Origin: Paratrimastix pyriformis
Taxonomy: Eukaryota > Preaxostyla > Paratrimastigidae
Assembly: GCA_027972325.1 (NCBI GenBank)
Contig: JAPMOS010000026.1
Span: 20,001-84,000, forward strand
Reading direction: 5' to 3'
DNA length: 64,000 nt
The notes below the pieces were generated by a model, which was not told where the DNA came from, made no database searches, and worked only from the letters and a program-made list of their open reading frames with translations. Below are positions 5,385 through 14,300 of the stretch, piece by piece. The position numbers and the translations under genes are program-made. The first letter of the stretch is position 1. The number at the start of each line of letters is the position of its first letter.

Positions 5385-8300
5385 CTTTACGATCATCTGG
5401 CGAGCTGGGACACACTCGCCTGTGTGGCCTTCCTGAGCAGCCTGCTCCCCGTGGGCACCCCGATCTTCCTGGATGAGGCACAGCTTCTCCTGGCCGCCGT
5501 CGACGATGAACCACCACGGGAGATGAATGGCGCCATGCTGGCCGGCCGTCCGACCACTCCGACACCGCTGCAGCAGCGCCCCTTGGCCACGACCCTCTGC
5601 GACCTGCTCATGCGCCTCTCGAAGTGTTCCTCCGTGTTGGGGGGCACCGGCCTTGGCCTGTCAAAGGCAGGCTGGACCCTGGACAGGTTTGTCGTTGTTG
5701 TTGTTGTTGTTGTTGTTGTTGTTGTCATTGCCTTTGTTGTTGTTGTTGTTGTTGTTGTTGTTGTTGTTGTTGTTGTTGTTGTTGTTGCAGTTGTTGTTGT
5801 TGTTGTTGTTGTTGTTGTTGTTGTTGTTGTTGTTGTTTGTGGCGCGGGCTGCCTCGTGCCACTTGTCCTCTCACTGTTTCCTGTTGGTGCTGGTGGCCTG
5901 ACTTTGACTTGCCGCTCTGGTGGTCTGTGTAGGGGGGTGTGGGGTCGGCAAGGCATCGGTCTTCTGTCGATTTTACAGTTCACTGTTTCCTGTTGTTGTT
6001 CTCGTTGACTTTCTGTTCAAAGGCACCTGCCTCACTGTTTCCTGTTGGTGCTGGTGGCCTGACTTGACTTGCCGCTCTGGTGGTCTGTGCAGGGGGGTGT
6101 GGGGTCGGCAAGGCATCGGTCTTCTGCCGATTCGGCAGCTCACTTTTCCCTGTTGTTGGGTGGCGCGGGCTGGATCGTGGCATCGGTTTAACAGTCCACT
6201 GTTTCCTGTTGTTGTTCTCGGCCTGACTTGACGCTTTGACTTTCTGTTCAAAGGCACCTGCCTCACTGTTTCCTGTTGGTGCTGGTGGCCTAACTTGACT
6301 TGCCGCTCTGTCTGTCTGTGCAGGGGGGTCGGCAAGGCACCAGACATGGAGCTCCCGGTCTTCTGCCGCTTCGGCAGTCATCGCTCCCCGGCCGAGGTGG
6401 CGCAGTTTCTGCTGATGTTTCACGCGAACCCCAAGTTCTGGGGAGCCGACTTGCCCCGACAGCTTGTCGGTCGACATCGTTTCGCCGCTCGGCTGGTCGC
6501 GGAGCTGTTGCAGTCACAGTCGGGTGACCCCCAGGCAGCCCTGCATACAGTCACCACTGAGCTGTGTTCCGGACTGGTTGGATACCTCCGGGCAGCCATG
6601 GTCAACGGCACCCTCGATCGGACAAAGTTTGACAGAGTCATGGCGGAGTACTCCCTGCTCGGGTCTGATGATATCATCATCATCAGCAGCAGCAGCATCG
6701 GCATCAGCAGCAGCAGCAGCAGCATCATCATCATCATCATCATCACCCAGTCATCACCCAGTCATCACCCAGTCATCACCCAGTCATCACCCAGTATCAC
6801 CCAGTCATCACCCAGTCATCATCATCACAGTCATCACCCAGTCATCACCCAGTCATCATCATCATCATCATCATCATCATCATCATCATCATCATCATCA
6901 TCATCATCAGAGAGACATGCTGTGTATTTGCTAGGACGCAGGCGAAGAGAAAAAGGAGAAACTTTACTCCCGCCTTCGCGTCGCGCGTTACACGTTCCGA
7001 TGGGGGCCCTGGGCCTAATGACCTCGTGTTGGGCCCTCCTCGGCCGGGGCAGCCGTGGTGAGCGGAGCCCCAGTGGGTGGGTGGTGGGGGGTGCCTTGTG
7101 TCAGGGGTGCGGCTCGTCGGCAGCCGCCCTGTTGCGCATGGTCATCAGGGCCAGGGCGTCGCGCACGAGCAGTGTGGCGAGGGAGGAGAGGCACTTTTGG
7201 AGGCCCAGGCGGATCTCAGGCGGGGAGGCCGGGGTGGTCCGGGAGAGAGCCTGTAGCGTGGCGCGAGGGATGACTCCCCGCGCCGAGAGGACGACCGGGA
7301 CCACGCGGCAGGGTTGCCCGGTGGCCTTCGAGATCGACCGACAAAGCTCGGCGTAGCGGGAGGCTTTCCCCGCTGCCAGGGCGGGCCAGCCCTGGCTGTC
7401 ACCCCCTGTGATGGCCACGTCTACGAGCCACCAGGCGCCGTCGGGGGCGCGGGACTGCAGGACCAGGTCCGGGTGCAGGTCTCGGAGAGCCGCCGGGATC
7501 TCGTCCAGCAGAGGATGTGGGAGGGCCGGCTGGAGGTTGGTTGCCGAGACCCCCAGGTAGTGCCGGATCACCCAGGCGTCCTGGCCGCCGAACCAGGCCC
7601 ACAGGCGGCGGACGGCGCGGTCGTGCCTGGCCGTATAGTAGTTGTGGAACCTGCCGCAGGCCGACAGCAGGTGAGCCATGGTCTCCGGGGCCCCGTGGCA
7701 GAGCGGGCAGGGTGTGGTCCAGGCAGCGCCGCCGTGGCCCGCGTAGAGGGCGCGGATGGTTGCCAGGGTGGGGAACGTGCCAAAGAGCAGCCAGACGAGG
7801 CGGCGCACCTTCCAGGCGGGGGCCGCGAGCTGCCGCCAGGCCGCCGAGGCCAGCTTCTGCTCGAGTGTGTCGAGGGTCACCCCCGATGAGGCCAGACTCC
7901 GGCGATGCAACCAGTCGCGGCTGTCTTCCTCGCACTGGAGGGCAAGGCAGAACCCCCGGGCCGCGGCGGCGGTGAACGGTCGAGCAGGGAACGGCAGGGG
8001 CGCATCCACCGGTCCTGATGGTCGGAACCGGAGCGGGGCTGGGCAGGTGAGGCCGAACTGTTGCGGGGGCGGCAGGCTGCCGGGGTTGATGGCGGGGGGC
8101 GGCGGGTCTGCCGCCGCGGCCTCCCCCGCCAGGCGGTCTGCTTGCAGGTTCCCCCACAGTTGGGGGGCGTGGGGGACGGCGACGTCGGCGTGTGACGGGA
8201 CGTGGTGGCAGAGGAGGCGTGGCCAGCGGGAAAGCAGCTCGGCGCGGATCCGGAGGACGGTCTGCTGACACTGTGACAGGCCGCAGGACCGACAAAGGGC

Positions 8301-11300: not shown

Positions 11301-14300
11301 GGAGCCAATGTATAAATGACGGTGGCGATTGGCTAGGAAGTAGAGAACAGGGGGCGTGCCGATGATCTTGGTGGGCGTCGAGGCCGCCGGAGGCGTCGGG
11401 GGTGGTGAGGGTTCCGGGGGGCCAGAGGGGGGGGCGCTCGAGGGGAGCTCAACGGCCGGTGTTGCGGACGTCGGAGGGGTGGCGGGCCGGGGTGTCGCGG
11501 GGGTGGGGGGGGCTGGCGCCGGCGAGCCACTGGGGAGGAAGAGACAGCGGGCCGCCACGCGGAGGTCCGCTGGGGTGGCCGGGGTTGCCAGCGGGGCCCC
11601 CGCGAATGGGGCCACCTTAGTAGACCGGGAGACGAAAGCACTGGCCACCGCCGCATGAGATCAGGGAGCCAGGGGGAACCAGAAACGTCTGTGGGGGAAG
11701 TGCTGGCTGGGTGGCCGGACGGCGGGGGCGGCGGGGGCGGGAGGGGACGCCGTGGGAGTCCTGGGGGAGGGGAGCAGCCAGCGGGATGCTCGGGGCGGCC
11801 AGGGGGAAGCCCGGGATGGCCAGGGGGATGCCCGGGGCAGTCAGAGGACGAGGAGATGGGAGGAGTGGCGCGCCCGGTGGCACGGAGGCCCGGATGCGCC
11901 GCCGAGGGCGGGCCATTGCTGCGGTGGGAGAGCCGGGGGCCATGGCAACCCGGGGGATGGCCTCTTCCGGGGGAAGGCGGTTTTGGGCGACGGCCGCCTT
12001 GGACCAGGCCACCCTGGAGGTGGAGGTGGAGAGGACGGCGTTCAAGTCCCTCCGCGAAGCAAAGGTCGCCCAGGCGCTCCCGCCCGGGCCGAGCTGGCGC
12101 ACCGCGGTCGGCTTTGCAGCCATGCGCTCGGGGAGACCGCGGGGAAAGTAGAGCTCCAGAAGGGGCTCCGGTCCCCGGGCAGCCCTGGGTGGCGCGGGGG
12201 CAGCTGTCTTGTTGGGCGGCGGCCGGGAGGGAGTGGGGCCAGCGGGTACTGGGGCGGGGGCCTGGGGCTTCGACAAACCGAGGGCAGCTGCTGATCTGTT
12301 GGACCAGACGGCCGGAAACTGCCCCGTGGCCGCCGAGATGGCGAGCTCAGCGGCGTCTCTGGTGTCAAAACGGAGCCAAGTCCGCCGATGACAGCCGGGG
12401 GTCTGCTCGGCACCGGGGGGGGGCGGCGGACCCCGGGGGAAGAAGACCTCGAAGAATGGTTTGCGGGCTGGAGGAGCCCCTGCCCCAGCAGGGGACGGGC
12501 TGACGGCGGAGGGTGCGGGCTGGGCAGCGGGGGTCGTCTGGGCGGTGGTCTTCGGGGCGGTGGTTGCCATGGGGGCCGCATGAGCGGGGGCCTTCGCCGC
12601 CAAGCCGCCGGGGGGGATGGTTGGAGCGGGGGCCCCCTGGAGGGCGGGGTTCGCGGGGGCCGAGGGGGCGGGCTTTGGAGGGGTTGGCCGGGGGGGTGTC
12701 GCCGCGGGGTGGAGGCCTGGGCGGGCGGAGGGGGACCATCCGGTGTTGCGGAACGCTGCAGCAGCCGCAGCGGGGTTGTCTGCAAGGACCAAAGTAAGCC
12801 CAGGACCCCCCACAGGGTCCTGAGCTGATTACTTCCGGTGAAACCTTAAGCCGGGGCAGGTCATGTTCCCCCGACCGACAGCCGCTCTCATCTCTCACGC
12901 CGCCATTTCTGGCGCGTCGGCCCATCCTCGGACGAGGACTTCCCGATATTTGAGCTGTCTTGCCGGCTGGCGAGGCCGACTAACCGAGCCAGAGCACGGC
13001 TCTTCCGGTGTCCTGTCCCCGCGAGTGCAGGGTCGGATGGTTTTTATCCTCAATTCCGGAATGTGGAGCCCAGGTACGGCGTGTGGGGAAAATGGGGGAG
13101 GAGGACGGGATTGAACCCGCGACCTCGGGTGCTGCAGGGTTGCGCTCTAACCGCTGAGCCACGCGGTGGGTGGGGAGGACCGGGAGGGGGGCGAGGGTCT
13201 GGCCCCATGGACATGGCCACGCGGGGTGTGTGTATGTGCGGGAATGACCGGGGAGGGAGCCACGACCTGGGGTTGGGGAGTCGGGCGGGATGGGGGTGAT
13301 GGCGACCGGGCTGTGGTGGCTGTGACGGGGGGAGTGATGGCGGGGATGGGAGCGGCGGGGGTGAGGGATCCCGGGGGAGGGGGCAGGGGCGTGGGGGTGC
13401 TGACGGTGGGCGGGGGAGGCGGGTGGGAGGGGCGGGTATCGGGATAACATCCCCATCGTCCTCAATTTCAATCTCCTCCGCGGCGGGGCTCACGGCCCGC
13501 TTACTGGGGCCCGTGGGCGCTGGGGGAAAGCAGGAAGGGAAGGGGCGGTGAGTTGTGGAGTAGGGGTGGTCAGGCCATGGATGGCAGGCAGGAGGGGCAA
13601 AGCCACGCAGGATGGGGGTGTCATAGCCACGGTGGTGGTGTCATAGCCACGCAGGATGGGGGGGTCATAGCCACGGTGGTGGTGTCAAATCCACGCAGGA
13701 TGGGGGGGTCATAGCCACGGTGGTGGTGTCATAGCCACGCAGGATGGGGGGGTCATAGCCACGGTCAAATCGGGGGAATCGGGGGTGTCATCAGTGGCCG
13801 TGGATGGGGGGGGGGGGGGGACGGTGGTGATGTCATAGCCACAACATGGTCATCATCATACATGGTCATCATCATCATCATCATCAACATGGCCATCATC
13901 AACATGCAAGTCATGGATGTGGGGTCATAGCTACAGAATAGGGGGTGATAGCCACAGAATAGGGGGTCATAGCCACAGAATAGGGGGTCATAGCCACAGA
14001 ATAGGGGGTCATAGCCACAGAATAGGTGGTGATAGCCACAAATAGGGGGTGATAGCCACAGAATAGGGGGTGATAGCCACAGAATAGGGGGTGATAGCCA
14101 CAGAATAGGGGGTGATAGCCACAGAATAGGGGGTGATAGCCACAGAATAGGGGGTGATAGCCACAGAATAGGGGGTGATAGCCACAGAATAGGGGGTGAT
14201 AGCCACAGAATAGGGGGTGATAGCCACAGAATAGGTGGTGATAGCTACAGAATAGGGGGTGATTGCCACAGAATAGGTGGTGATAGCCACAGAATAGGTG

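Follow-up and report, generated by a model that had tools for sequence, protein, structure and literature searches.

The 64,000-nucleotide stretch of Paratrimastix pyriformis DNA analyzed here (contig JAPMOS010000026.1, positions 20,001 to 84,000; hereafter the window) carries on its minus strand a mobile element, a non-LTR (long terminal repeat) retrotransposon or long interspersed nuclear element (LINE) of the kind that bears a restriction-like endonuclease (RLE). Its second open reading frame (ORF2, encoding protein P0001) contains five domains in the order GIY-YIG nuclease, reverse transcriptase (RT), RNase H, CCHC zinc knuckle and RLE, and by sequence the GIY-YIG domain is SLX1-like. The reading that we tentatively favor is that an RLE-bearing LINE captured an SLX1-type GIY-YIG domain ahead of its RT, with the RLE making the first nick in the target and the SLX1-like domain making the cut on the second strand.

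GIY-YIG nucleases have been placed in Penelope-like elements and PD(D/E)XK nucleases in non-LTR elements (PMC5718144). Among the matches listed by title or abstract in open-licence PMC, a scope outside which subscription papers and Repbase fall, no description of a GIY-YIG domain and an RLE in one LINE was found, and no paper there combined 'Paratrimastix pyriformis' and 'retrotransposon'. A preliminary description, made from the sequence alone, had called the combination of GIY-YIG, RT and RLE unusual, and this is supported by the domains found and by the outcome of the literature search. Second-strand cutting and the completion of LINE integration are poorly understood. If the favored reading is true, two cleavages for which other LINEs use a single nuclease would be shared out between two nucleases of one protein, and single active-site changes would let the two steps be separated. 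It would also place a GIY-YIG-RT pairing outside the Penelope-like elements and link SLX1 to selfish DNA.

The ORF2 frame and its two nuclease domains

Long open frames are common at high GC content, and the ORF2 region has a GC content of 72%, while the whole window has 60.75%. When the surrounding 5.7 kb was simulated 300 times with a first-order Markov model, none of the six frames exceeded 1126 codons, and a chance open frame was therefore ruled out for the 1519 codons of ORF2. The value for the window fits the published GC content of P. pyriformis, 60.94% (PMC10703272). Residues are numbered as in P0001, with residue 1 at position 11660; the Pfam query of ORF2 began at a GTG, and its residue numbers are four lower. 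Pfam, sequence matches to solved structures (PDB) and a motif pattern together bear out the claim of the preliminary description that one open frame carries the listed domains, and its assignment to the LINEs stands as well, with an RVT_1 match at 1.6e-20 and matches to R2 structures at 2.3e-27.

The GIY-YIG piece alone matched five distinct SLX1 sequences in PDB at E-values of 8.5e-9 to 1.1e-4, the best extending over 68 residues, and the only other PDB match at E <= 1 was a bacterial UPF0213 chain (0.16). The Pfam model PF01541 gave an E-value of 3e-4 and 21.4 bits, slightly below its gathering score of 22.6, and NCBIfam returned only weak matches for P0001 (0.3) and for the GIY-YIG piece (0.23). 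Residues 95-170, whose failure against GIY-YIG profiles had been named in advance as grounds for abandoning the idea, thus fall slightly under the Pfam cut-off and match SLX1 strongly, and the SLX1-like character first read from the motifs is confirmed. The domain keeps YIGST, the arginine/histidine segment and E166, and the signature GIY reads VLY. E166 aligns to a glutamine of the best-matching crystallized SLX1 chain. The metal-ligand glutamate of Cg-Slx1 is E79, and the E79Q variant is inactive (PMC6902002); we take E166 to be the putative metal-ligand glutamate, the equivalent of this E79. The likeness to SLX1 nucleases lies in the sequence of the GIY-YIG domain, whereas ORF2 differs from them in that no RING finger was matched by Pfam at E <= 10 and in that the domain shares its frame with an RT.

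A GIY-YIG domain that is catalytically dead, or that serves only as a DNA-binding module, would fit the altered signature and the Pfam score just under the cut-off. SLX1 proteins likewise vary at the GIY motif. Against such a loss of function stand the retained YIG, arginine/histidine and glutamate residues and a core that is identical between two loci (see below), and we judge it, from these residues, quite improbable.

The RLE, the weakest domain assignment by the tools used, is a candidate recognized by motif order and selection. The motif set described for RLE-bearing LINEs is CX2-3CX7-8HX4C, RH, PD, D/E and KX2KY, with a K in the second helix, the second K of KX2KY being less conserved (PMC5678591). 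P0001 has this full order (RH at 1345-1346, PD at 1397-1398, D at 1414 and KASRY at 1432-1436), with R replacing the second K. An earlier regular expression had been written after P0001 was seen, and weight was placed instead on a pattern with the motif order of PMC5678591 and gap ranges of our own. When the C-terminal 260 residues of P0001 were shuffled 5000 times, no shuffle fit this pattern. Among eight proteins P0001 alone fit it, and P0007, a protein described below, also did so when RH was relaxed to xH (three proteins tested). The C-terminal PD-(D/E)XK-type RLE claimed in the preliminary description is thereby upheld by motif order, with no profile match and no PDB sequence match for the region. 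Pairwise scores of the RLE to P0007 and to P0003, a second RT protein of the window, were not significant, being reached by 49 to 605 of 1000 shuffles; over a longer C-terminal stretch the score to P0007 was reached by 2 of 300 shuffles, with only the knuckle aligning, and that to P0003 by 31 of 300. Two alignments whose C-terminal columns were poor entered no counts.

Selection was assessed against copy B, a second copy of the element that reaches the end of the window. Over 164 codons of the RLE part, the NG86 method gave 0.203 nonsynonymous (dN) and 0.839 synonymous (dS) substitutions per site and a dN/dS of 0.24; LWL85 gave 0.26, and maximum likelihood gave 0.07 with a dS of 2.7. Differences at the first, second and third codon positions numbered 31, 29 and 72. 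The RLE part is under purifying selection, and copy B keeps PD, D and KX3Y.

Reverse transcriptase, RNase H and known elements

Among solved structures the RT matches R2 best (2.3e-27), followed by L1 (2.1e-13). Compared with eight other RT cores, it scored 103.7 bits with R2Tg, 82.2 with P0007 (the second-best score), 75.4 with 9nl2, 63.7 with R2Bm, 56.8 with P0008, 54.5 with P0009, 51.1 with P0010 and 22.1 with P0003. Of the 8000 candidates scored in an RT search, P0007 was also the best match that did not come from the host. In a tree of these nine sequences, the approximately unbiased (AU) test did not reject groupings of the RT with R2 (p = 0.118), P0007 (0.179), P0010 (0.092), P0003 (0.057) or P0008 (0.607), and barely rejected one with P0009 (0.042), an element with an apurinic/apyrimidinic endonuclease (APE). 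A sister position to R2 is thus neither shown nor rejected by a tree of this size, which leaves the RT unplaced. A place of the RT inside a clade already described with this layout, the second ground for abandonment named in advance, is likewise compatible with this tree. One scan of viral contigs found no relatives, and a scan of genome contigs gave four pattern matches, none of which was confirmed.

The RNase H has a D-E-D-H-D residue set, as in PMC4640811, at TDGS, AEVEAL, SDSS, SHAD and QADRL. In pairwise comparison none of 300 shuffles reached its score with P0009 or with P0010, whereas 37 of 300 reached that with P0007, and kinship to the RNase H of P0007 is for that reason not established.

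Two other RT frames lie in the window. P0003 (35909-39265, minus strand) matches RVT_1 at 2.4e-18 and a group II intron RT model at 1.2e-8, far below the cut-off; its RT is only distantly related to that of ORF2, and its C-terminus has a QPDLV...D...KxxxY stretch. The frame at 16-2847 (minus strand) matches RVT_1 at 1.7e-17, is unlike LINE RTs and by eye resembles the DIRS or LTR type.

The element resembles the R2 group (R2Bm, R2Tg) in its RT, which is closest to R2Tg by score among the eight, and in the order of CCHC knuckle and RLE motifs C-terminal to the RT. It differs in carrying an RNase H and an N-terminal GIY-YIG domain, and in that its target sites are not one fixed site. Dualen elements combine an APE with a PD-(D/E)XK-like nuclease (PMC3636483), and an RNase H is reported for Dualen/RandI (PMC4640811). 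The window element likewise has two nucleases, one of them an RLE, but has a GIY-YIG domain in place of the APE. Membership in Dualen was rejected because Pfam found no APE in ORF1 or ORF2. P0007 (2441 aa, source jgi), with SET, APE-like, RT, RNase H, zinc knuckle and RLE-like motifs, looks Dualen-like itself.

Penelope-like elements share with ORF2 the presence of an RT and a GIY-YIG domain in one element. In Penelope the RT is N-terminal to the GIY-YIG domain, unlike in ORF2, where the GIY-YIG domain comes first, and Slx1 and Penelope are treated as separate GIY-YIG families (PMC1564403). ORF2 differs further in its RNase H and RLE. Membership in the Penelope-like elements was provisionally rejected because, among solved structures and with no direct comparison to Penelope, the RT matches R2/L1 and the GIY-YIG domain matches SLX1; on the same comparison, the link to Penelope implied in the preliminary description was not supported. 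Being SLX1-like, the domain was probably captured independently of Penelope-like elements.

The Utopia/NeSL group resembles the element in being made up of RLE-bearing LINEs. Oomycete Utopia has an RNase H, and some members have an N-terminal protease (PMC4640811). In Utopia, unlike in ORF2, the RNase H precedes the RT, and the word GIY is absent from the main text of PMC4640811. A protease-like stretch was seen in the proteins P0005 and P0006 introduced below, and not in the window copy.

Linkage of the GIY-YIG domain to the RT and the proposed integration pathway

A search with full-length P0001 (8000 candidates scored) returned two proteins, P0005 and P0006, both from P. pyriformis, and a search with the GIY-YIG domain among 193 candidates of matching length returned only P0005. 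The full-length search and the RT search scored only the 8000 candidates sharing most words, and further relatives may exist. P0005 shares ORF1, the linker and the GIY-YIG domain in the same order as the window copy. It is identical to P0001 at 67 of 67 residues of the GIY-YIG core. In the linker that follows, 137 of 155 residues are identical, and in the one before the core, 42 of 57 aligned residues. P0006 keeps the glutamate-bearing segment of the GIY-YIG domain (63% identity over 51 columns), and judging from it there are probably two families of such LINE in P. pyriformis.

Upstream of their ORF1/GIY-YIG-like stretches, P0005 and P0006 share a related stretch of 222 columns (33%), by eye ubiquitin-protease-like, preceded by a shorter similar stretch (39% over 59 columns). 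The UCH model matched it only at 0.18 in P0005 and gave no match in P0006, and a SAP/USP-like stretch was looked for in the window copy and not found. The stretch is possibly the 5' part of longer copies, or may belong to host genes.

In the pathway that we propose, the ORF1 and ORF2 proteins would bind the element RNA, the C-terminal RLE would nick the target, and the RT would copy this RNA starting at the nicked 3' end, by target-primed reverse transcription. The RNase H would then remove the template RNA, and the SLX1-like domain would cut a branched three-way or four-way intermediate on the second strand, leaving a primer for second-strand synthesis. We infer that each domain is active and that the two nucleases divide the work in this way. 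R2 is reported to cut an open four-way junction that provides the primer for second-strand synthesis, and SLX1 to cut all branched DNA structures (PMC6895275 and PMC6902002, respectively). That a LINE lineage of Preaxostyla captured a cellular SLX1 as a built-in junction resolvase and kept the RLE for the first cut is a possibility that we regard as more doubtful than the pathway itself.

Several observations weigh against the pathway and the one-protein layout on which it draws. In R2 the second-strand cut is the work of the RLE itself, and the step can therefore do without a second nuclease (PMC6895275); SLX1 is reported to be inactive without SLX4 (PMC8287910). The AlphaFold model of the GIY-YIG region is weak, with a predicted local distance difference test (pLDDT) score of 55; in it, VLYFLAN and HLYIG form strands and the glutamate lies in a helix. 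A Foldseek search with this model gave none of 117 matches at E <= 0.001 and no SLX1 among the best 50 of the 117. The model of the RLE region is poor (pLDDT 40 overall, 44-68 over the core); its core reads helix-strand-strand-helix-strand, where PD precedes the first strand, D lies in the second strand and K in the helix after it. The ORF2 frame has no ATG before residue 465. Finally, residue 346 is the last point to which P0005 and P0006 follow the element, and neither matches an RT; it follows that the join of GIY-YIG to RT is seen in one copy only and that the GIY-YIG domain might be made apart from the RT.

Two separate proteins, with the GIY-YIG domain translated together with ORF1 through splicing or a frameshift and the RT-RNase H-RLE part starting separately downstream, would fit the missing ATG and the 44-nt overlap of the end of ORF1 with the ORF2 frame in another frame. 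At the junction P0005 reads SPADLRVAARC, which is what the window gives after removal of a 56-nt GT...AG stretch (11570-11625), in a frame other than that of ORF1, and a possible GTGCGC donor lies where P0005 and P0006 leave the element. The gene models of P. pyriformis used RNA-seq intron hints (PMC10703272). Residues 1-95 of ORF2 lack the codon-position GC pattern that the frame shows from the GIY-YIG domain on, and with no early ATG the listed start of ORF2 is not a demonstrated start. Together with the P0005 junction and its frames, this means that translation may depend on splicing, on a frameshift or on initiation at a codon other than AUG. On the other side, Met465 lies inside the R2-aligned RT region, which begins at residue 454, and initiation at this codon would cut off the beginning of the RT. 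Moreover, the frame is open with a coding-like GC pattern from the GIY-YIG domain through the RT, and the shared exit point may reflect a single chance donor picked twice by a gene predictor. We consider the two-protein arrangement unlikely, and we infer that the GIY-YIG domain and the RT are translated as one chain.

The order of the two cuts could also be reversed, with the GIY-YIG domain making the first nick and the RLE cutting the second strand or being a remnant. The GIY-YIG domain is the proposed integration nuclease of Penelope-like elements (PMC1564403), and the target sites seen in the window are varied (a microsatellite, a tandem-repeat tract and another repeat). The domain is, however, of the SLX1 type, a structure-specific rather than site-specific class, and an RLE that keeps its motif residues in a coding region under purifying selection is hardly a remnant. 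This reversal appears improbable to us, and the RLE is retained as the nuclease of the first nick in the favored pathway.

The layout could, lastly, be an artefact of the assembly, or separate elements could have been joined in a chimera that has since decayed. On that side we count that the published assembly of P. pyriformis was built from long reads and polished (PMC10703272), that the linker before the GIY-YIG domain appears to be read in different frames in P0005 and in the window, and that the GIY-YIG-RT join has a single example. A frame open over 1519 codons with its catalytic motifs present and the recurrence of the ORF1-GIY-YIG-linker order in P0005 argue the other way, and we regard such an origin as very improbable.

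ORF1, copies of the element and other features of the window

The coordinates of the element and its copies are collected in Table 1. ORF1 has two similar blocks ('FEVFFPRG...' and 'LELYFPRG...') that by eye resemble an RNA recognition motif (RRM); it gave no Pfam match and no PDB match, and it lacks a clear coding GC pattern.

Table 1. Positions of the element, its domains and its copies in the window (UTR, untranslated region).
Feature	Coordinates	Strand	Remarks
ORF1	11617..12828	-	403 codons stop to stop, proline-rich
ORF2	7101..11660	-	1519 codons stop to stop, five domains
SLX1-type GIY-YIG nuclease domain	11151..11351	-	residues 104-170: VLY, YIGST, RRFCQHNG, E166
LINE/R2-like reverse transcriptase	9066..10301	-	residues 454-865 aligned to R2; FADD at 719-722
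RNase H	8115..8549	-	residues 1038-1182; Pfam 4.2e-6, above gathering score
CCHC zinc knuckle CX2CX8HX4C	7656..7709	-	residues 1318-1335; zf-RVT 0.093 (Pfam)
Candidate RLE core RH...PD...D...KX2RY	7353..7628	-	residues 1345-1436; motif order and selection
3' UTR and element 3' end	6909..7100	-	ends ...CAAATACACAGCATGT...TCTCT, then GAT microsatellite
Copy B	63231..64000	-	RLE part (164 codons, 70% identical) and 3' UTR; stops at window end
5'-truncated 3' UTR fragment	2877..3038	-	82% to copy B
5'-truncated 3' UTR fragment	22265..22404	+	84% to copy B
Further element-like pieces	22402-22508 and 22679-22733		near the 22265..22404 (+) fragment
Last ~23 nt of element only	20546..20568	+	flanked by direct repeat CTGCTG (6 bp)
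Last ~22 nt of element only, plus one T	20734..20756	+	9-bp direct repeat CTCTGGTGG
Fragment resembling copy B RLE-coding region	47216..47307	+	70.7%, 116 columns

Common 3' ends were found at 6909, 63231 and 2877 on the minus strand and at 22404, 20546 and 20734 on the plus strand, with a shortened one near 20288-20326 (plus strand). Two of the three exact matches to the 3' end have flanking repeats; the third is copy B, which has none and whose 5' end lies outside the window. The insertion at 20734 sits between two tandem-repeat arrays, which could account in part for its 9-bp repeat, although the neighboring array units suggest that the 9-mer was doubled. Target-primed reverse transcription with extreme 5' truncation produces shared 3' ends and tiny flanked insertions of this kind. 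Related elements that share this 3' end might have given rise to the tiny copies.

No rRNA match was found in the window at Rfam cut-offs, and the flanks are a microsatellite and other repeats, not 28S rDNA. On the 5' side (12700-13300) Rfam gave no ribozyme match and nothing beyond a weak tRNA, and at 62850-63500 it gave only a chance-level snoRNA. An 87% repeat lies upstream of the ORF2-bearing copy at 12909-13079 (minus strand) and, inverted, at 63067-63229 (plus strand), where it abuts the 3' end of copy B. It is adjoined at 13104-13162 (minus strand) by a tRNA-like stretch of 22.2 bits, below the Rfam cut-off, and may be a tRNA-derived short interspersed nuclear element, a 5' UTR or a target.

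The consecutive overlapping frames at 39817-44560 (minus strand) include a ubiquitin-protease-like box (UCH 6.6e-5); their start is APE-like (Exo_endo_phos 1.1e-3), their tail matches RNase H (0.013), a C..C..H..C knuckle can be made out by eye, and PCIF1_WW is matched at 1.7e-6, just under the cut-off. They look like a decayed APE-type LINE without an RT core and with an unexpected PCIF1-like C-terminus. At 16815-18122 (minus strand) an ORF of this eukaryotic-looking contig matches the model of the plasmid replication protein CyRepA1 (1.3e-13, below the cut-off). A long tandem array at 23529-27696, with a unit of about 445 bp in part, overlaps a minus-strand ORF with a leucine-rich-repeat match. 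The ORF at 53131-54474 (plus strand) encodes a Tc1/mariner-type transposase, with matches to DDE_3 (5.6e-16) and HTH_Tnp_Tc3_2 (9.1e-11).

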